This document shows positions 9,288 through 43,072 of a DNA stretch of 64,000 bases, piece by piece. This DNA is from Thermoflexibacter ruber (GTDB lineage: Bacteria > Bacteroidota > Bacteroidia > Cytophagales > Thermoflexibacteraceae). The stretch covers positions 62,001-126,000 of the forward strand of contig NZ_FONY01000006.1 in assembly GCF_900113045.1 (NCBI RefSeq). The letters run 5' to 3'. Every line of letters starts with the position of its first letter. The stretch's first letter is position 1. The position numbers were made by a program, and so were the translations under genes. The notes beneath the pieces were generated by a model. The model saw only the letters and a list, made by a program, of their open reading frames with translations, made no database searches and was not told the origin of the DNA.

Positions 9288-9313
9288 TAAGTCAAATAGT
9301 TTATTATACAAAT

Positions 9314-9443
9314 ACTTATCAAGAAAGGCGGAGGGCTGGGTACCCTGCGAAGTCTTAGCAACCTACCAAAACTCATTGGCAAGGTGCTTCTGGGCGACAA
9401 TTCGCTTCCCACTCAAAACTAATTGATTTTGAGATAGATAAGT
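9314..9443 (+). promoter_or_regulatory. SAM-I-type riboswitch
   Basis: S-adenosylmethionine-sensing leader RNA. The closing stem P1 is ACTTATC (9314-9320) with GATAAGT (9437-9443). Then come the SAM-I core words in order: AAGAAAGGCGGAGGG, a GGGT/ACCC pair, GAAGTCTTAGCAACCT (the consensus ends GCAACC), AAGGTGCT, and a last hairpin CTCAAAAC/GATTTTGAG (9412-9433). I identify the class from these conserved words; no covariance search was possible. After P1 a small hairpin AGAGCAAA/TTTGTTCT has no T-run, so the output may act on translation or on a distant gene. No methionine gene follows directly: the next open frame is an acetyltransferase, and metH begins 2.7 kb downstream. Confidence 0.85.
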
Positions 9444-9553
9444 AAGAGCAAATCTTTTGTTCTCCCGCCAAATTAGTAATAGTGAATAAGTTTTTTACAA
9501 GTAAGTAAAGTGTATAGGGCATAGGAGTTAGTAGCTTTTAGCATATAGTGGAT

Positions 9554-9668
9554 TTCTCACGTGTTTTCACGTGAGAAGGGAAAAAACTTAGGTTATTTTT
9601 CACATCAAGCGACATGAAAAATTATTCAAAAAAACAATCAGTTTCGCGAGTGATAACACACGAGAAAC
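9554..9668. repeat. REP-like hairpins 1-3 of the RAYT island
   Basis: Three hairpins in a row. (1) 9554-9577: TTCTCACGTG-TTTT-CACGTGAGAA, perfect 10-base stem. (2) 9595-9622: ATTTTTCACATC-AAGC-GACATGAAAAAT, two mismatches. (3) 9641-9668: GTTTCGCGAGTG-ATAA-CACACGAGAAAC, two mismatches. All share the layout of an 11-12 base stem, a 4-base A/T loop and a CACGTG-like head with the elements at 10259-12080. Between 9444 and 9553 I see nothing else recognisable. Confidence 0.85.
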
Positions 9669-9672
9669 CCAT

Positions 9673-10215
9673 ATGAAATCATACAAAATGCTAATATACA
9701 AACTACTGTCCCAAAACGAAATCTCAAAATTCCCTGAAATTGACAGAAGCGAAAAGGTACAATATAGTTATGTTTACAAAGATAATCAGTTGGAAATTGT
9801 GCCTTGTGAGCTAAAAATTGAGGATTGGGAGGAGGAAGAATTAGCAGATTTTATACAAAGATTGCATGATTTATATGACAGATGCGGTTTTATTTGGGGA
9901 ACTTTTGAAGAAAATAGATTAGTAGGCTTAGTTTCATTAGATAACAAGCGATTTGGGAAAAACTTGGATTTCTTAAAATTGGATATGCTGTATGTAAGTA
10001 ACTCGCACAGAGGAAAGGGAATAGGGCGTAAACTCATGGCAATCAGCAAGACAAAAGCGAGAGAAATGGGTGCAAGTAAACTCTATATTTCTGCGACTCC
10101 TTTTAAAAATACGGTGGACTTTTACTTGGGCTTGGGCGCAGTGCTGACTTCCGAACTGAATCAGGAACTCTTTGATTTAGAGCCAGAAGATGTGCATTTG
10201 GAAATAGAGGTGTGA
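9673..10215 (+). CDS. GNAT-family N-acetyltransferase
   Basis: Acetyl-CoA-dependent acetyltransferase of unknown substrate. It has 180 residues from the ATG at 9673; the ATG at 9688 (protein starting MLIYKLLSQNE) looks as likely and matches how related small GNATs begin. The acetyl-CoA loop is clear: LYVSNSHRGKGIGRKLM (R-G-K-G-I-G, about residues 109-125). It is followed by the helix and the ATPFKNTVDFYLGLGAVL segment, which is usual for motif B. The N-terminal 60 residues are acidic. It sits between REP-like hairpins, 25 bases after hairpin 3, and is the first frame downstream of the SAM riboswitch. I know of no methionine link for this family, so that placement is probably accidental. Confidence 0.8.
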   Translation: MKSYKMLIYKLLSQNEISKFPEIDRSEKVQYSYVYKDNQLEIVPCELKIEDWEEEELADFIQRLHDLYDRCGFIWGTFEENRLVGLVSLDNKRFGKNLDFLKLDMLYVSNSHRGKGIGRKLMAISKTKAREMGASKLYISATPFKNTVDFYLGLGAVLTSELNQELFDLEPEDVHLEIEV

Positions 10216-10258
10216 GAAGCTATTGTTTTTATCACGTCAAAATATGTGGCTCGTGTAG

Positions 10259-10348
10259 TTTTTCACGTCAAAAGACGGTGAAAAAGGGTTTTAAAATGTA
10301 AATAGTCAATTTATCATGTGTTGAACTCGGTACGAAGTACATGATAAA
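10259..10348. repeat. REP-like hairpins 5 and 6 upstream of the RAYT gene
   Basis: 10259-10285: TTTTTCACGTC-AAAA-GACGGTGAAAAA with one bulge, preceded by GTAG (10255-10258). 10310-10348: TTTATCATGT (10310-10319) pairs with ACATGATAAA (10339-10348) around a 19-base loop; the ATG in the right arm is the first possible start of the transposase gene. A degenerate copy (4) is suggested at about 10228-10250. The first is in forward, the second in inverted orientation. Confidence 0.85.
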
Positions 10349-10916
10349 CAATATAGTAAAATATATGCTTCGCAGAGATGTTTATTTTTTTACAGCAACT
10401 ATCCATGAGTGGCAAAAACTACTCAAACCAGATAAGTACAAGCAACTTATCATGGATAGCTTGAAGTTTTTGGTGGAAAATAAACGGATTTTCTTGTATG
10501 GTTTTGTCATCATGCCAAACCATATTCACCTGCTTTGGCGTATGCAAGAGGGGCATGATGAAAGAGATGTGCAAAGGGATTTTCTAAAATTTACAGCACA
10601 ACAAATCAAGTTTGACTTGGTAGCCAATCATCCGAGAGTTTTACCTTTTTTCAGGGTGCAAGAGAAAAGTAGGCAATATCGTTTTTGGCAAAGTGAACCC
10701 TATATCAGTACCATGTATCGCAAAGAAGTTTTTGAGCAAAAGTTGAATTACATTCATCAAAATCCTTTGCAAGAAAAGTGGCAGTTGGCAAGCAAAGCAG
10801 AGGATTATCATTATTCATCTGCTCGTTTTTATTTGCAAAATGTTGACGATTGGGGTTTTATCACTCACTATCAAGCACATAGTGAAGAAGTAGGCTGGGA
10901 GAAAAAGAAAAAGTGA
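10341..10916 (+). CDS. REP-associated tyrosine transposase (RAYT, Y1_Tnp)
   Basis: Single-copy HUH endonuclease related to IS200/IS605 transposases that is thought to mobilise REP hairpins. It has 191 residues. The HUH motif is in IMPNHIHLLW (His61, His63); the likely catalytic tyrosine is Tyr137 in LNYIHQNPLQ. The fold begins at VYFFTATI, a typical first strand. Two starts are possible: ATG 10341, which lies inside a hairpin arm, or ATG 10365 (MLRRDVYFFTATIHEW), which fits the family better. No IS ends or second orf are present. Instead, hairpins of one family lie on both sides (9554-10348 and 10927-12080), several carrying GTAG at their foot. GTAG is the tetranucleotide known to be needed for REP recognition by E. 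coli TnpA-REP. This is the genomic setting expected of a RAYT. Confidence 0.9.
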   Translation: MINNIVKYMLRRDVYFFTATIHEWQKLLKPDKYKQLIMDSLKFLVENKRIFLYGFVIMPNHIHLLWRMQEGHDERDVQRDFLKFTAQQIKFDLVANHPRVLPFFRVQEKSRQYRFWQSEPYISTMYRKEVFEQKLNYIHQNPLQEKWQLASKAEDYHYSSARFYLQNVDDWGFITHYQAHSEEVGWEKKKK

Positions 10917-10926
10917 AATGAAGTAG

Positions 10927-11351
10927 TTTATCACATCAAAAGATGTAATAAATGGAAAGGATATGTAGAGGGTTTATTAAGGTTTCTCATGTGAAAACAC
11001 ATGAGAAATGGAAATATTAATCAATTTGTTATGTCTTATGACATGGCAAACTAATGTGTAGAGCGGTAGTTTTTCACGTCAAAAGACGGTGAAAAATGGA
11101 GATACACAAGAAAAAGTCAATTTTTCACGTGTTATCACGTGAAAAACTAATGCAGTGAAGTAGTTTTTCACGTCATAAAACGGTAAAAAGGGAAGAATTA
11201 GATAGGAAACCAATCAATTTGTCATGTCTTGACCCTCAGTGGAAATGATGACAAATTTGTATGAGTGATGGTTTTTCACGTCATAAGACATGAAAAATGG
11301 AAGGTTACATAGAAAAACTAGTCAATTTGTCATGTGTTTTCGCAGGGCAAA
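10927..11351. repeat. Array of nine alternating REP-like hairpins (REPIN-like)
   Basis: This fills the 464-base gap 10917-11380. Hairpins: 10927-10952, 10983-11008, 11025-11050, 11070-11096, 11121-11146, 11164-11189, 11218-11255, 11272-11297, 11326-11351. Forward copies read like GTAG-TTTTTCACGTC-AAAA/ATAA-GACGGTGAAAAA-TGG. Inverted copies read like TCAA-TTTTTCACGTG-TTAT/TTTT-CACGTGAAAAA-CTAAYG, which is the reverse complement of the same unit. From 11025 onward the two types alternate strictly, and the last four starts are 54 bases apart. The copy at 11218-11255 has a long loop. Stem sequences vary (TTTCTCATGTG, TTTGTTATGTC, TTTATCACATC) while pairing is largely kept. Confidence 0.92.
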
Positions 11352-11380
11352 CTAACGAATCATAAAAAAGTAGATTTAAA

Positions 11381-12043
11381 ATGAATGGACGCTTTCTAAG
11401 TATTTTAGTATTACACCTACTTCTTTCGCCAAATCTATTCCTTTTTGCACAAGACAAGGAAAAATTTGTAGAGTGGACTGAAATAGAAATAGAACTTGCT
11501 AATACTGCCAAAGACAATAAAAAATTAACAAAAGAAGAGAAAAGAGTAGTTTATTTGACAAATCTATGTCGTATCAATGGAAAAAAATTTACCTTGACTT
11601 ATTTGAAAGAATACTGCCAGAAAAATAAACTAAATCATCGCAAAGGTAACATAGCAAGTTTGATAAAAGATTTGCAAAAAGTAAGAATGCCTCCACTCAT
11701 TGTCCTACCAGAATTGTGTGATGCAGCTACTTTTCATGCCAAAGATATGGGAGAAACAGGACAAGTAAGTCATAATTCATCTGATGGAACTGATTTTTCT
11801 GATAGAATGAAAAGTTTTACAGGTGCTATTTATGGATTAGGCGAGAATTGCTCATACGGACATGATAAGGCAGAGAATATAATTATGCAATTACTAATAG
11901 ATGATGGAGTGCCAAGTTTAGGACATCGCAAGAATATTTTAAATAAGGATTATCGTAGTATTGGAGTATCTATCCAAAGACATAAAACATACAAATATAA
12001 TTGTGTCATGGATTTCTCAACATCAAAGAAAATTGAAAAATAA
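11381..12043 (+). CDS. Secreted CAP-domain (SCP/PR1-like) protein
   Basis: 220 residues. The N-terminal signal peptide runs to about residue 23 (ILVLHLLLSPNLFLFAQ-DK). The CAP domain (about 50-220) is recognised by AATFHAKDMGETGQVSHNSS (the first family His in a helix and a second in the VSH segment), the GENCSYG motif and GHRKNILNKDYRSIGV. His and Glu of the CAP cavity are therefore present. An insert with KKFTLTYLKEYCQKNKLNHR lies before the core. Bacterial CAP proteins are extracytoplasmic and mostly of unknown activity. The gene is flanked by REP-like hairpins on both sides and sits between the transposase and metH; it has no evident link to methionine metabolism. Confidence 0.85.
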   Translation: MNGRFLSILVLHLLLSPNLFLFAQDKEKFVEWTEIEIELANTAKDNKKLTKEEKRVVYLTNLCRINGKKFTLTYLKEYCQKNKLNHRKGNIASLIKDLQKVRMPPLIVLPELCDAATFHAKDMGETGQVSHNSSDGTDFSDRMKSFTGAIYGLGENCSYGHDKAENIIMQLLIDDGVPSLGHRKNILNKDYRSIGVSIQRHKTYKYNCVMDFSTSKKIEK

Positions 12044-12053
12044 CATTAATCAA

Positions 12054-12080
12054 TTTTGCATGGTCTTTTGACCTGCAAGA
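12054..12080. repeat. REP-like hairpin 16, last copy of the island
   Basis: TTTTGCATGGTC-TTTT-GACCTGCAAGA, a stem with one bulge and one wobble, flanked by ATCAA and CTAAC exactly like the inverted copies at 11025 and 11326. It lies between the CAP gene and metH. Confidence 0.8.
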
Positions 12081-12171
12081 CTAACATATAGCAAAGGACT
12101 GTTAGGGTTTTTACCTACTTATAGCCATAAATCATTCATAATTAATAATTTATAACTCATAATTAAGAGAA

Positions 12172-15100
12172 GTGAAGAAAGACATCAGAGAAATTTTAAA
12201 ACATAGAATCCTCATTTTGGACGGAGCAATGGGGACAATGATTCAGCGATACAAACTCACTGAGGCTGATTTTCGTGGCGAGCGATTCAAAGACCACCCT
12301 TGTGATTTGAAGGGAAATAACGACCTGCTATCTATTACCCAACCGCAGATAATCAAGGAGATACACCACCAATACTTAGAGGCGGGGGCTGACATCATAG
12401 AAACCAATACATTCAGCAGTACAACTATTGCAATGGCTGATTATCAAATGGATAACAATGAGTTGGTTTATGAACTTAACTTTCAATCTGCTAAAATAGC
12501 CAAAGAAGTAGCCGACGAGTTTACTGCTAAAAACCCCGATAAACCTCGATATGTAGCGGGGGCTTTGGGACCTACCAACCGCACAGCTTCTATTTCTCCT
12601 GACGTGAACGACCCTGCTTTTCGGGCTGTTACTTTTGATGAGCTGGTAGAGGCTTACTACGTTCAGGTCAGTGGTTTGGTCGAAGGCGGGGTAGATATTT
12701 TATTAGTAGAAACCATTTTTGATACACTGAACGCAAAAGCAGCACTTTTTGCGATAGATAAGTATTTTTCTGAACCGCATAAGCCTCACCCCCTACCCCT
12801 CTCCTTTGGAGAGGGGAGTAACTCCCTCTCCAAAGGGGGCGCAGTGCATACTGAGGGCAGGGGTGGGGGCAGACACCTCCCTATCATGGTTTCTGGCACT
12901 ATCACCGATGCAAGTGGACGTACCCTTTCGGGGCAGGTTACAGAGGCGTTTTACAATTCCGTTTCTCATGCCCACCTGTTGAGTGTGGGGCTGAACTGTG
13001 CCTTAGGAGCAGATTTATTGCGACCTTATCAGCAGGAGTTGGCTCGTATCGCTACTACTTATGTGAGTTGTTACCCTAATGCAGGTTTACCAAATGCCTT
13101 TGGGCAGTATGATGAAACGCCAGAGTACATGGCAAAGCAGTTAGAAGATTTTGCAAAAAATGGCTTTTTTAATATCGTGGGTGGTTGCTGTGGCACTACG
13201 CCTGACCACATTAGAGCCATCGCCGAGATGGTGAGAAAATACCCACCAAGGAAGCTACCAGAGCCAGATACTTTTCTTCATTTATCAGGTTTAGAGCCAA
13301 TCGTGATTAAGCCTGAAACTCGTTTTGTCAATATTGGAGAGCGTACCAATGTAACGGGCAGCCGTAAGTTTGCCAAACTAATTAAAGAAGAAAAGTATGA
13401 TGAAGCATTAGAAATTGCTAAGCAACAAGTAGAAAATGGTGCGCAAATCATTGACATCAATATGGACGAGGGAATGTTGGATTCGGAAGCGGCGATGGTG
13501 AAGTTTTTAAACTTAATTGCCTCAGAGCCAGATATTTGTAAAGTACCTATTATGATAGACTCTTCCAAGTGGTCAGTTATTGAAGCGGGTTTGAAGTGCA
13601 TACAAGGCAAGGGCATTGTCAATTCTATTTCTTTGAAAGAAGGAGAGGAAAAGTTTATTCATCAAGCAAGGCTGATTCGCCGTTACGGTGCGGCTGTGGT
13701 CGTCATGGCTTTTGACGAAAATGGACAAGCAGATACTTATGAAAGGCGTATTCAGATTTGTGAGCGTTCCTACAAAATCCTGACTGAGCAGGTGGGTTTT
13801 CCTCCCCAAGACATTATTTTTGACCCGAATATCTTGACCGTAGCTACGGGCATAGAAGAACACAACAACTATGCGGTAGATTTCATCAATGCCACTCGTT
13901 GGATTAAGGAAAACTTACCACATGCCAAAGTTAGTGGTGGGGTAAGTAACATATCTTTCTCATTTAGAGGCAATGATGTAGTAAGAGAGGCGATGCACTC
14001 TGCTTTTCTCTTCCATGCAATCAAGGCAGGTTTGGACATGGGTATCGTCAATGCGGGTATGATTGAAGTGTATGAGGAAATTGACAAAGAACTTTTGGAA
14101 CGCATCGAAGATGTGTTGCTAAACCGCAGACCTGATGCCACAGAACGCTTAGTAGAATTTGCCGAAACAGTAAAAAACAAAGGTAAAGCCGTAGAAAAAG
14201 ACGAGGAGTGGAGGAAAGCAGACGTAAAAGAACGCCTCAAACACGCACTTATCAAAGGCATTACAGATTACATAGAGCAAGATACAGAAGAAGCAAGACT
14301 ACTTTACGAAAAACCTTTACAAGTGATTGAAGGACCGCTCATGGACGGAATGAATGTAGTAGGTGATTTGTTTGGAGAAGGCAAAATGTTTCTCCCCCAA
14401 GTAGTTAAATCGGCAAGGGTAATGAAGAAAGCTGTTGCCTATTTGATTCCTTACATAGAGGAAGAAAAACTAAAAAATCCAGGGAGTAGCCAAGCAAAAA
14501 ATAACGGAAAAATCTTATTAGCTACCGTTAAGGGTGATGTGCATGACATTGGGAAAAATATTGTAGGAGTGGTTTTGGCTTGTAATAACTTTGAAATCAT
14601 AGACTTAGGAGTAATGGTACCCAAAGAAAAAATCTTAGAAACTGCAATCAAAGAAAATGTAGATATTATTGGGCTAAGCGGTTTGATTACTCCTTCTCTT
14701 GATGAAATGGTCTATGTTGCCCAAGAAATGGAACGCAGAGGCATGAAAACGCCTTTATTGATTGGTGGAGCTACTACTTCCCGCTTGCATACTGCGGTGA
14801 AAATCGCCCCTAATTACAGTGGAGCGGTGGTACATGTATTAGATGCTTCTAAAAGTGTACCGGTGGCTTCAAACTTAGTTACTGATAATGAGCAAGTAAA
14901 ATTTGATTTTATTCAAGAGGTTAAAGACGAATATACAAGACTTAGACAAGAACATGCTAAGAAACAAGATAGTAAAAACTATCTTTCTCTGGAAGAAGCA
15001 AGAAAAAATAAAGTACAGATAGACTGGGAAAATGAGCGTATCGTAAAACCTTCATTTTTAGGAACAAAGGTTTTTGATGATTATTCTTTGGAAGAATTGA

Positions 15101-26975: not shown

Positions 26976-27854
26976 TCATAATTTGTAAAGTTCTCCCACT
27001 CCTTCTGCCGCTTTAAATTTCACGATGTCGGGGAGTTGTTTGTTTTCCATGAGCTTTTGTATCTCGTTTACGGCTTCTTTTTCCTTCAGACGCACCAAGG
27101 TTTCTATCAAGGCTATTTGCAAGTTTGGTTCAGTTTGCAAGCGCAAAGATTTGGTCATGGCTTGGCGCACCTCTTTTTTATCGCCAAAGTAGTAAAGTGC
27201 ATTGATGGCTTCCAGCCTTACGTTAATGCTTTTGTCGTAATTCATTACATTGACCAAAGCGTCAATCGTTTCTTTATCAGCATCTTCCATTTCATATACA
27301 TAGCTAACTGCCTTGATTCTATCGCTTGCCGATGCTTGTTTGAGCATGTTGAGCATGACCAAGTTTTTAGTATTTGCAATTTCTTGTTTTAAAAGAGCAA
27401 TTGCTTCGCTGTTTTGCTCTGTAACTGACTGTCTGCCAAAGAAAAAGGTGGCAATTAACAAGGCAATAGAAGCGGCAATTCGCAGAAGACTTGCTTTACG
27501 AGTGAAAACACTCGCAAAGGTGAAAGTTTTTGCTTTTTGCAGGTCAGACGTTCCATCAACCCTATCCACTTTGCCATTGTCAGTGTCCTCACTGATAATT
27601 TCCATAAACGACTTGGAAAGCCGCTCTACTGCTTTTTCCTTTTCCAAAAAAGCATAAAAATTATCGTCTAATGCCTTTGGTGTAGGGACAAGTGGCTGAT
27701 TTTGAAAAGTTTGGAAAAGTATTTTCAGTTCCTCATATTCTTGCTGACAATCGGGACAGTTTGCCAAACCTTCTTCTACTTCTTTCTGAAGTTCAGTAGG
27801 GAGGTTGTTGTCTATCAAGTCTATCAGATGTATTTTTATCTCTTCGCAGTTCAT
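26976..27854 (-). CDS. Anti-sigma factor with zinc-finger-like N-terminus and HEAT-like C-terminus
   Basis: 292 residues. The N-terminal 45 residues (MNCEEIKIHLIDLIDNNLP, then CPDCQQEY) resemble the zf-HC2 anti-sigma domain, with the CxxC present but the usual His three residues before it not evident. A single membrane helix follows (about 125-142, LLRIAASIALLIATFFFG). The C-terminal half is helical and repetitive (ETIDALVNVMNYDKSINVRL, ALYYFGDKKEV, QIALIETLVRLKEKEAVNEI), typical of HEAT repeats, and probably lies in the periplasm. It follows the sigma gene by 70 bases and is presumed to hold that sigma factor at the membrane. Confidence 0.82.
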   Translation of the reverse strand: MNCEEIKIHLIDLIDNNLPTELQKEVEEGLANCPDCQQEYEELKILFQTFQNQPLVPTPKALDDNFYAFLEKEKAVERLSKSFMEIISEDTDNGKVDRVDGTSDLQKAKTFTFASVFTRKASLLRIAASIALLIATFFFGRQSVTEQNSEAIALLKQEIANTKNLVMLNMLKQASASDRIKAVSYVYEMEDADKETIDALVNVMNYDKSINVRLEAINALYYFGDKKEVRQAMTKSLRLQTEPNLQIALIETLVRLKEKEAVNEIQKLMENKQLPDIVKFKAAEGVGELYKL

Positions 27855-40600: not shown

Positions 40601-43072
40601 GTCCACGTAATAATCAAAGCCTTTGATGCCATAGAACACGTCTTGGGTGAGTATAGTAAAAGTGCGAGAACGGTTTACTTTTCTTCCCGATTCATCAAAA
40701 ACGGTAATATAAACTTTGCCCTCTAACATTCCTACATTTTTGTAATTGCTTGGCATAGTGAAAGTTTCAGAAAAGCGACCTTCTTCATTGGTTATGCCTT
40801 CTCTGAAAATATTTTCAAAAGTGATGTCCCCTCTGCCACTCAAAGCAAAAGTGTAATCTGAATATTGCGCAGGGCTAAAATACTTGCGGGAAAGTTGCAT
40901 CTCCATTTCGTAGTTACGGTTCTTGGCAGGAGGTCCAAAAAGATTCAAGGCTTGCCCACTTACCTCTAAGTTTTCCCCAATTTTGACCACTTCCTTGCTC
41001 ACTTTTGCTTCTACTTTGATGCGGTCAGGGACAAATTCCTCTACATAGATGTATTTGGAATTGAGCAAGATGTCATTAGAAGTATAAACCTCTACGGTAT
41101 ATGCCCCCGTTACCGTACTTGCAGGAATTTTTACCGAAGTTTCAAAAGAGCCTTGCTTGCTCAATGTGCCTTTTTTCGTGATAAATTCCTTTCCATTGGG
41201 CAGTAAGACCTTCATTTTTATAGGCAAATCCGTTACTGCTTGCCACTGTTTATTTCTGATGATGGTTTTCAGATTCATGGTTTCATCAGGACGGTATAGT
41301 TCTCGCTCTCCATAGATAAATGCCTGATAACCAGATTCATTTTCACGAATCCCTCCTACATCATATCGAGAAGTACTTACTCCTGTCTGACTGAAATAGA
41401 GGTAGTTAAAATCACTTTCCTTGCTTGCGGTAATCATGCCTACTTTGAAACCACTTGCCTTGGACTTGATACTTGGGAATTTGGCAACCCCGTCGCTCCC
41501 TGTGGTGGCGGTATAGACTTCTTGGTTATTGGTGCTGACTAAAGTAACACTTACACTATTAAGCGGTTGAGCATCTAAGATAGAATTAGCAAAAACCAAA
41601 ATCTCGTCAGGTGTTTCTTTTACTATCAAACCAATGTCAGACAGCGAAAGCAGTTGAGTCGCACTGCGATAGCTCTCGTTGTCATCTGAAACTTTCATGA
41701 CGTAAATCCCTTTAAAAGGCTTAGAATCAATGAAACTCATATTGAGCAGGGACAAACCATCGGCTTTGGGTAAGTTTTTGGTTTCATAAGTTTGCTCAAA
41801 AACCAAATCTCCATAATTATCAAAACTGCCATAATACCCATAATCATATTCATAATCAAAGTAGTAGCTCTGTTCTCTCAAATATGCCAAAATGTTATTT
41901 GCATAAATTTTATAAATTTGTACTCTAATTTTGGGAATACTCGTAATTCGCATTCCCACATTTTTGTTTCCTTTGGAAGTCAAATAGATAGCTTTTTTAG
42001 AAGCAAAAGCGATGCTGGGTTGCAAGTCGCCAAAAACCACCATTTGCTCTACATTGCTGTTCAGACTTCCACCAAAAATGCCTTTCAAAGATTTATCAAC
42101 GATTAGTCTATAATTTTTCCCAAACTCAAAATTCCCTTTGAGCATAAAGCCAAAATCCGCTAATTCTATCTCATAAGAAATTGCAGGAGAAAGACTTAAA
42201 AACCTCTTAATATCGCTGATATTGGGTTGTACGGCTTGGTTAGTATAAACTTTGATGTAAGGCTTGTCCTCATCAGTTTCGCCTGTGATTTGCAAAATTT
42301 TAAAATTGTCTTTGGAAGGAATCTCTGTTTCGAACTCCAAGTCAGAGGCGGGTTTTTCGCCTTGTGGTGTTTTCAAGCCTGGCTTAATGGTAATTTTAAG
42401 TTTCTGCTCATCAAACTTTTGAGAGGACTGCTGAGGAACAGCCAATTGGACAGATTCACTTATTTCGGAAGTATTGGTTTTGTAGCCTGCCTCAGCCCCA
42501 CCTATGGAAACTTTGGCAAGTTGGTTCACCTCCGCAGGGTTTACAGGATAGTTGAAATTCAAGTTCATACGCAACTCAGGTATGTTTTGCTTGTTCATTA
42601 CCCAAAAAATATCTGTTCCTAACAAGTTCAGGTAAGGCGTATGAAAGGAAAAAGCAATGTCGTCGCCTAATTTCAACTTTTCAGTAGAAGCCTCTACCAC
42701 CTTGTCCGTAATTTCTGCCTTGTAGTCCGTGCTTGGCTTAAAACCTGTTTCAGGGGAAAAAACCAACTCGTTTGCAGCAGTCCACTTGAACTTTCCTTTG
42801 ACTTCTGGGGTAAACTTAATGTAATCTTCTTTCTTCCAAATATCTATTAATGAATCTTTTACGATATTAGCGTTAAAGGTAAAAACTAAGTTTTGCTGCA
42901 CGGCAATCTCCTCCGTAAAATTGCGGTTGGTAACATTGAGTGCGCTCCTGCCAAACTTCCCACAAGCAAAAGCAAGGAAAAGAAGGGCAGTAAAAAATAA
43001 AGCAATTTCGGCTTTTGAGAGAAATTTTTTTTCATGTAAAAACATATGAAAAATGGAATTACGTTTAGACAT
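37619..43072 (-). CDS. Alpha-2-macroglobulin family lipoprotein (bacterial A2M)
   Basis: 1817 residues. A large extracytoplasmic protein related to complement and protease traps. The N-terminus has a hydrophobic segment ending LLFLAFAC-G (Cys37), a probable lipidation site. MG-type beta domains and a bait region follow. LYRPDETMNLKTIIRNKQW and YAYGWGMTSGTSFEVNKEGE mark the MG3-MG6 part; PQFSGDLRIIAVAAKDNAFGT is the conserved A2M block. The thioester motif is intact in YPYGCVEQTVS (Cys1356 to Gln1359), so covalent trapping of proteases is possible. A C-terminal receptor-like domain with ITDMLPAGLEIDNPRLGG ends it. Bacterial A2M is often encoded with the peptidoglycan synthase PbpC; none is adjacent here. 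It is preceded by the gap 43073-43587. Confidence 0.93.
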   Translation of the reverse strand: MSKRNSIFHMFLHEKKFLSKAEIALFFTALLFLAFACGKFGRSALNVTNRNFTEEIAVQQNLVFTFNANIVKDSLIDIWKKEDYIKFTPEVKGKFKWTAANELVFSPETGFKPSTDYKAEITDKVVEASTEKLKLGDDIAFSFHTPYLNLLGTDIFWVMNKQNIPELRMNLNFNYPVNPAEVNQLAKVSIGGAEAGYKTNTSEISESVQLAVPQQSSQKFDEQKLKITIKPGLKTPQGEKPASDLEFETEIPSKDNFKILQITGETDEDKPYIKVYTNQAVQPNISDIKRFLSLSPAISYEIELADFGFMLKGNFEFGKNYRLIVDKSLKGIFGGSLNSNVEQMVVFGDLQPSIAFASKKAIYLTSKGNKNVGMRITSIPKIRVQIYKIYANNILAYLREQSYYFDYEYDYGYYGSFDNYGDLVFEQTYETKNLPKADGLSLLNMSFIDSKPFKGIYVMKVSDDNESYRSATQLLSLSDIGLIVKETPDEILVFANSILDAQPLNSVSVTLVSTNNQEVYTATTGSDGVAKFPSIKSKASGFKVGMITASKESDFNYLYFSQTGVSTSRYDVGGIRENESGYQAFIYGERELYRPDETMNLKTIIRNKQWQAVTDLPIKMKVLLPNGKEFITKKGTLSKQGSFETSVKIPASTVTGAYTVEVYTSNDILLNSKYIYVEEFVPDRIKVEAKVSKEVVKIGENLEVSGQALNLFGPPAKNRNYEMEMQLSRKYFSPAQYSDYTFALSGRGDITFENIFREGITNEEGRFSETFTMPSNYKNVGMLEGKVYITVFDESGRKVNRSRTFTILTQDVFYGIKGFDYYVDTRQPLSIPVIAVNHLGQLATNAKAKVRIMRYEWQNALENTYSGYRYVSQRKEFVEKELDLTITGTSTYVPFVPTRSGEYEIRISSPNATDSYVSRTFYAYGWGMTSGTSFEVNKEGEIDITLNQEKFAVGEEAKILMKTPFAGKILLTIERDKVYDYFIVQTDKKAASFNLPIKKEYLPNAYISATLIKPTDDSSVPLTVAYGYKTLKVEDAGSKLNLTIKVPEKIRAKTKQEIVVQTDKRQSDIEVTIAAVDEGILLLKNSDNPAPFEFFYQKRALEVNSYNIYPRLFPELKATQRNYGADGYDLGKRLNPMANKRIKPISFWSGTLKTNGSGSAKFTIDVPQFSGDLRIIAVAAKDNAFGTGVANMKVVDPLVVSTSLPLFLSPNDEILVPVTLTNTTEKNAEAKVQIGTSGAMELVDENAQSVSVPAGDERQVFFRAKAKNEIGTALVNVEVNGLGEKFTEKIDMTVRPSTSLLKRSGSGLVEAGKSANIDMKADYIQNSVKGKLIISRSPVVEFAKSLNYLVMYPYGCVEQTVSTAFPQIYFADLIDDLYSTQAGSNYAKQNAYFNVQEAIRKLQTMQLYDGSLSYWQGGSYASWWGTVYAAHFLIEARKAGFEVDTKFLNQIYSYLGSQVKRKETYIYEYFDNGNIRKATRIAPKETFYSLYVLALAGRQDVATMNYYKANQQLMSLDSKYLLATAYYHVGDQASYRKLLPQSFSGEKSLTALGGSFHSYIRDEAIALNALIETDPQNAQIGIMARHLAQQMKQAVYLNTQENAFGLLALGKLAKKAGESNATATVYADGSRIGEVSNKSLVLSKQVQGKQVKIDAQGGNLYYFWELEGLNTTGEYKEEDSFLKVRKEFYDRNGNRISGNTFKQNDLVVVKITLQSTGGSVPNVVITDMLPAGLEIDNPRLGGVGVSWIANASEAEHFDFRDDRINIFTSASPTEIKNFYYICRAVSRGTFKMGPVSADAMYNGEYHSYNGAGTVVVE

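Follow-up and report, generated by a model that had tools for sequence, protein, structure and literature searches.

What is a single transposase gene doing among a crowd of hairpins between a riboswitch and the gene below it, and do the hairpins belong to that transposase? The question is raised by a 64 kb stretch of the Thermoflexibacter ruber genome (contig NZ_FONY01000006.1, positions 62,001 to 126,000; hereafter the window), in which a gene for a REP-associated tyrosine transposase (RAYT) stands among hairpins that resemble repetitive extragenic palindromes (REPs). Our answer is that the locus is very probably a REPtron, that is, a single-copy, 'domesticated' RAYT of the HUH/Y1 type (subclass 2.6, Bertels group 5) surrounded by clustered REP hairpins of its own, and that a REPIN-like family (REPINs being REP doublets forming hairpins) dispersed through the genus has this RAYT as its source and partner.

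The hairpins are far more numerous than chance would allow. A half-hairpin consensus, with up to three mismatches, has 16 matches in the window where 1.45 would be expected, a count reached by none of 100 shuffles, and 14 of the 16 matches lie inside 9561-12080. A covariance model of 34 positions, R1, was built from 10 window copies; run with filters off, it finds 15 hairpins in 9548-12084 at a (rough) E < 1, of which the ten strong ones (43-52 bits) are those that built the model, and the rest are weaker. The R1 consensus is [GT]TAG-TTTTTCACGTC-AAAA-GACGTGAAAAA-T[TG]GA. There is one RAYT open reading frame (ORF) within the island, and the description in the initial annotation, of hairpins of one design around a single RAYT, is confirmed. 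A first hairpin scan had overlooked copies with bulges or long loops; in two island hairpins (10306-10352 and 11214-11259) the loop is about 20 nt instead of 4.

Immediately 5′ of the RAYT gene is a doublet consisting of a plus-strand hairpin at 10255-10288, with a GTAG foot and an extra G in its 3′ arm (R1 47 bits), and a minus-strand, long-loop hairpin at 10306-10352 (loop ACTTCGTACCGAGTTCAAC; 26.2 bits), which overlaps the first ATG of the gene. The first hairpin 3′ of the gene is at 10923-10956 (plus strand, GTAG foot; 48.2 bits), and is followed by 10979-11012 (plus; 46.5 bits), 11021-11054 (minus, CTAA end; 48.9 bits), 11066-11100 (plus, GTAG foot; 50.4 bits), 11117-11150 (minus, CTAA end, loop TTAT on the plus strand; 52.5 bits), 11160-11193 (plus, GTAG foot; 46 bits), 11214-11259 (minus, long loop; 13.8 bits, a weak score for a hairpin whose position and stem are clear), 11268-11301 (plus; 48.3 bits), 11322-11355 (minus, CTAA end; 44.9 bits) and, between a CAP-domain gene and metH, 12050-12084 (minus; 43.2 bits). 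Degenerate hairpins are found at 9548-9581 (minus; 28.4 bits at 9554-9577) and, on the plus strand within 9593-9671, at 9593-9623 and 9638-9671 (14.5 and 15 bits). The GTAG feet reported earlier at 10255, 10923, 11066 and 11160 are thus present, as are the CTAA ends, at 11054, 11150, 11355 and 12084. Strict alternation of orientation, also reported, holds for 11021-11355 (R F R F R F R) and fails at 12050-12084, where a reverse copy follows a reverse copy. The variant with the loop of about 20 nt (ACTTCGTACCGAG... or TTCCACTGCGGGTTCAA...) has a conserved loop, recurs in all three congeners and is often the reverse partner of doublets (window 10306-10352 and 11214-11259; L016:1588-1636, L021:1539-1586, L053:6538-6584 and L054:7943-7989).

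The protein is a RAYT by several measures. The ORF at 10341-10916 (plus strand) encodes 191 aa, or 183 aa from the probable start, ATG 10365, and matches the NCBIfam model of REP-associated tyrosine transposases, NF047646, with 82.5 bits against a cut-off of 80 (E=2.7e-23). Pfam Y1_Tnp gives 18 bits, under its cut-off of 23, so that Pfam alone overlooks the window RAYT and a Pfam-only search of its own genome does not list it. The nearest solved structure, both by sequence and by predicted fold, is Escherichia coli TnpAREP with a bound REP hairpin (4ER8; E=1.6e-6, TM 0.60-0.66 for a predicted model with pLDDT 79); IS200-family structures match the fold as well. The catalytic motifs are intact (HUH as NHIH, W as FWQ, Y as YIHQNP) and fit subclass 2.6, Bertels group 5 (NH[LIV]H, WQ, YIH[QN]NP), an assignment that comes from comparison of motifs with Table 1 of PMC6006769. 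The full-length gene is present once in the genome, and an ortholog of 89% identity occupies the same metH locus in the congener G002.

The hairpins are a dispersed REPIN-like family and not a local array, because copies occur genome-wide and at intergenic sites, with compensatory pairing, inverted doublets and empty sites in congeners. The initial annotation had proposed a covariance search of the genome and its relatives, and this search has the outcome that favours its idea: a family that is not limited to the locus and is confined to the genus. In its own genome R1 has 69 matches at E<=1, of which 44 reach E<=0.01, on many contigs and mostly outside the island; 18 copies are found in G002 and 8 in the second congener, G001, whose genome is 62% complete, while 56 other relatives together give one marginal match (G009). 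The dispersed copies are intergenic in 29 of 33 cases, and ORFs cover 74% of these loci (p=1.7e-13). Elsewhere in the window the family has two isolated sites, a probable doublet at 27490-27599 (plus-strand half 27490-27523, R1 23.3 bits; minus-strand half 27572-27599, 23.3 bits with the class model R2 described below) and a probable copy at 43024-43057 (plus; R1 27.7 bits).

Pairing was examined in 39 copies, none of which was used to build R1. Eight of the 11 pairs have changed on both sides, and 60 compensatory cells are counted against 14.5 +/- 3.6 after shuffling, a signal that is abolished by sliding the partner arms. The earlier impression that stems have diverged while pairing is kept is borne out. 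The GTG/CAC tip and the A[AT]AA loop have hardly drifted among dispersed copies; the loop is present in every aligned copy, and the conserved unpaired bases beside the stem are one G per side (5′ -1 and 3′ +3). The GTAG foot, which the initial annotation took as a defining feature, does not have that role: it occurs in 4 of the 10 island copies used for R1 and in only 2 of the 39 dispersed copies, where the near-constant base is only the G directly before the stem.

Inverted doublets, with 4-25 nt between the hairpins, occupy about half of the dispersed places, and forward-reverse doublets are present in the island too, as had been noticed from the window. Some doublets have extended matching outer ends, for example AGGACTTACG...CGTAAGTCCT in several G002 copies. 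Across doublets, the outer-end pairing of true partners averages 5.76 against 4.81 for swapped partners, and the observed mean was reached by 2 of 2000 shuffles. When flanks are aligned between congeners, empty sites can be seen: the unit on contig C120 of the T. ruber genome is cleanly missing in both G002 and G001, that on C42 is missing in G002, and that on C78 is missing in G001. Messy or unclear comparisons (L021, L027, L034, L060, L069, L071 and L076) are left out of this count, and the copy at C77:115149 appears to be shared with G001 at the same place. Such clean presence and absence between congeners indicates insertion.

A second line of evidence comes from related RAYTs. An alignment search of genome contigs gave 80 relatives, nearly all from Bacteroidota; the named ones outside clear Bacteroidota are a few metagenome-assembled genomes labelled Chlorobi(ota) or only 'bacterium'. 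Around 65 of these genes, hairpin density is 4.5/kb within 250 bp, 1.8/kb in the next 250 bp and about 0.3/kb beyond 750 bp. The common hairpin at the 65 loci is NTTGTTGGTG-ANAA-CACCAACAAN, followed by GGC and with no conserved 5′ tag; a Pontibacter hairpin has GTTGTTGGTG. At 27 of 31 loci, the hairpin closest to the gene upstream carries the purine-rich loop on the minus strand, and the closest one downstream carries it on the plus strand; the window locus follows the same inverted placement about its gene. Closer RAYTs (57-59% identity, in G031 and G057) carry GTGTCAGGTG-ATAA-CACCTGACAC, with tip and loop as in the window, where the class tip GTG-A[AT]AA-CAC is kept and the lower stem is new. 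R2, a class model built from 44 class hairpins with this genus left out, finds three island copies at E 0.0005-0.003 (23.6 bits at 10979-11012, 20.8 bits at 11117-11150 and 22.4 bits at 9548-9581); the scores are low and the other island copies are near chance. This detection argues for homology over chance likeness. All 13 genomes with this RAYT clade have R2 matches, compared with 16 of the 46 remaining genomes (p=1.7e-5, uncorrected for kinship of the genomes). Across Bacteroidota, hairpin and RAYT are conserved together.

RAYT-hairpin systems in Bacteroidota are already known, because the structures of subclass 2.6 were published as lacking GT[AG]G, and the window family is a well-supported variant of this known type. 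In the account of Quentin et al. (2018), subclass 2.6, which equals Bertels group 5, is a class of Bacteroidetes recognised by the motifs given above; its genes are flanked by 'atypical' structures, which lack GT[AG]G and have copies elsewhere in the genome (PMC6006769). The window system shares all of these features. The main text of that paper calls the structures only atypical and weaker; relative to that description, the hairpins here are strong, have a common GTG-ANAA-CAC loop and tip, are inverted about the gene and, on the strand with the purine loop, are tagged with GGC on their 3′ side, with the lower stem diverged in the family of this genus. In the literature examined, which for PMC6006769 is the main text, we found no description of the look of subclass 2.6 hairpins or of one common design.

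Comparison with other systems places the family more exactly. With the canonical REPs and REPINs of E. coli, Pseudomonas and Stenotrophomonas (PMC3116915, PMC3733652, PMC8266576) it shares short extragenic hairpins, dispersed inverted doublets and one cognate single-copy RAYT in a REPtron, whereas the conserved GTAG foot is absent here and the 44 copies at E<=0.01 are a moderate number for REPs. The CGTC-tagged REPs (PMC3733652) are also found in Bacteroidetes and are also short hairpins with a loop of 4-5 nt; however, they have no transposase and a stem of 8-9 bp, whereas the window family has an associated transposase, a stem of 10-11 bp and no CGTC tag. IS200/IS605 elements such as IS608 and ISDra2 have in common with the locus the HUH/Y1 transposase fold and the single-strand hairpin logic, but here no mobility of the gene is seen, and the hairpins form many non-autonomous units instead of the ends of one element.

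How the family would move can be outlined by analogy with work on E. coli and Stenotrophomonas (PMC8266576) and with REPIN studies (PMC8049555), from which we infer cutting and copying by the window RAYT; recognition of the hairpin by this protein, and the strand recognised, are inferred as well. When the DNA is single-stranded, the RAYT would recognise the hairpin through its 4-nt A-rich loop, its GTG/CAC tip and a few unpaired bases beside the stem. It would then cut next to the hairpin by means of its tyrosine, and rejoin or copy the whole unit of two inverted hairpins, about 75-110 bp long, at an intergenic site, while the RAYT gene itself would remain at one locus. We put the chances at about even that group-5 RAYTs have a recognition code different from that of GTAG RAYTs, made up of the hairpin tip (GTG/CAC), the A-N-A-A loop and a short tag across the stem (GGC, or 5′-GCC on the complementary strand) in place of a 5′ GTAG guide, and that the enzyme and a single hairpin design have stayed together throughout Bacteroidota, with drift in the lower stems such as this genus shows.

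Several observations weigh against the RAYT as source and partner of the family. The G002 ortholog lacks about 55 N-terminal residues, yet G002 holds copies; and no clear ortholog was found in the incomplete G001 genome, yet copies are present there. Single-hairpin copies are common, and the outer-stem effect is real but modest outside a few young copies, so that an outer stem is not claimed for every copy. At the sites aligned between congeners, neither a target duplication nor a cut site is readable. The E-values of R1 and R2 come from short calibrations and are rough. In addition, R2 hairpins occur in 4 of 19 genomes without an NF047646 match at 1e-5, among them G011 with 119 class hairpins; G012, also without such a match, has 21. 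RAYT loss leaving orphan populations could explain the hairpins of such genomes. In G011 the class hairpins stand in ordered arrays (ATTGTTCGTG-TCTT-CACGAACAAT; L241, G011:C2:26500-29500) with no detectable RAYT.

The genomes that hold the family also contain other RAYTs, and a different enzyme could move some copies. It is possible, though unlikely, that the hairpins are a free family of REPs or miniature inverted-repeat transposable elements moved by another Y1 enzyme, with the window RAYT a mere neighbour. T. ruber has two more long RAYT-like genes, on C116 (39% identical; L152:2851-3613) and C59 (32% identical; L153:4302-5490), and the coexistence of copies with a truncated ortholog in G002 would fit such a scenario. 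However, hairpins of other families, particular to each gene, stand on both sides of the C116 and C59 genes (CCCAACAGTT..., CACCTACTT..., CTGCGTAGAGTT...), the window RAYT is the only one with R1 hairpins beside it, and it is with related RAYTs elsewhere that loop and tip are shared. Less probable still is that the hairpins act as RNA, as bidirectional terminators or mRNA-stabilising structures that are selected and spread by recombination, the RAYT being incidental. The intergenic position of the copies, and three copies between genes of S-adenosylmethionine (SAM) riboswitch operons, are compatible with a role in RNA, but the clean presence and absence between congeners is the behaviour of insertions, and the Rfam matches in the island are limited to the SAM riboswitch. 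An intrinsic terminator was rejected because the tracts beside the stems, T at the 5′ foot and A at the 3′ foot, are in the opposite order to those of such a terminator. That the locus is an ordinary insertion sequence of the IS200/IS605 type, with subterminal hairpins and copies that have decayed, is very improbable despite the Y1 fold, the HUH motif and the fold match to IS200-family structures, since the full-length gene is single-copy and has kept its locus in a congener, the REP-transposase model and not Y1_Tnp exceeds its cut-off, and the best match in fold and sequence is TnpAREP and not IS608 or ISDra2.

A REPtron of this kind matters because RAYT biochemistry has so far been built on GTAG systems from Proteobacteria. 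Group 5 now gains a defined candidate substrate (loop, tip, tag and orientation), together with natural variants and insertion polymorphisms, and how a GTAG-less RAYT finds its REP becomes directly testable. The locus further illustrates that a REP island can sit between a riboswitch and its gene and gather variable cargo.

The SAM riboswitch (RF00162) is at window 9313-9444, and metH is at 12172, 2.7 kb downstream, with the RAYT/REP island between them; an Rfam scan of the island gave no match other than this riboswitch, and a search of a plasmid collection gave none. The distance from riboswitch to metH is 2.7-3 kb in T. ruber and G002, filled by RAYT, hairpins and cargo; in G008, G014, G015 and G017 the riboswitch is directly upstream of metH. 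The island is a hot spot of variable cargo. In the window it holds genes for a GNAT acetyltransferase (9673-10215, plus; PF00583) and a CAP-domain protein (11381-12043, plus; PF00188), neither of which is present at this position in G001 or G002. The cargo in G002 consists of a second RAYT, a DUF6882 gene and another ORF, and that in G001 of NADAR and DnaJ/WG genes; the NADAR, DnaJ/WG and DUF6882 genes are bracketed by hairpins (L054:5875-7584, L053:6600-7898). Hairpins like 12050-12084 precede metH in both G002 (L053:7906-7940) and G001 (L054:7841-7875). Together with repeats of its own, the second RAYT of G002 lies directly next to the window RAYT's ortholog, at the truncated 5′ end of the latter (L053:5291-6413, G002:C95), and one more copy of these repeats separates metH from the last REP.

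Family units also stand between the genes of three more SAM-riboswitch operons of T. ruber (G000:C63:103877-103948, G000:C64:27805-27918 and G000:C73:58305-58389; L020, L077 and L034), so that, with the island, four of five riboswitch loci carry them (for the three units, Poisson 2.5e-4 as a post hoc estimate). These operons encode metY/metX, a sulfite or nitrite reductase with uroporphyrinogen methyltransferase, and cysN with a permease. Finally, the metH coding sequence itself contains an in-frame palindromic repeat (CCCTCTCC...GGGGGCGCAGTGCATACTGAGGG; window 12784-12880), which G002 metH lacks and of which a shorter form is found inside cysN (L034, reverse strand near 577); comparable in-frame palindromes include Rickettsia RPE.

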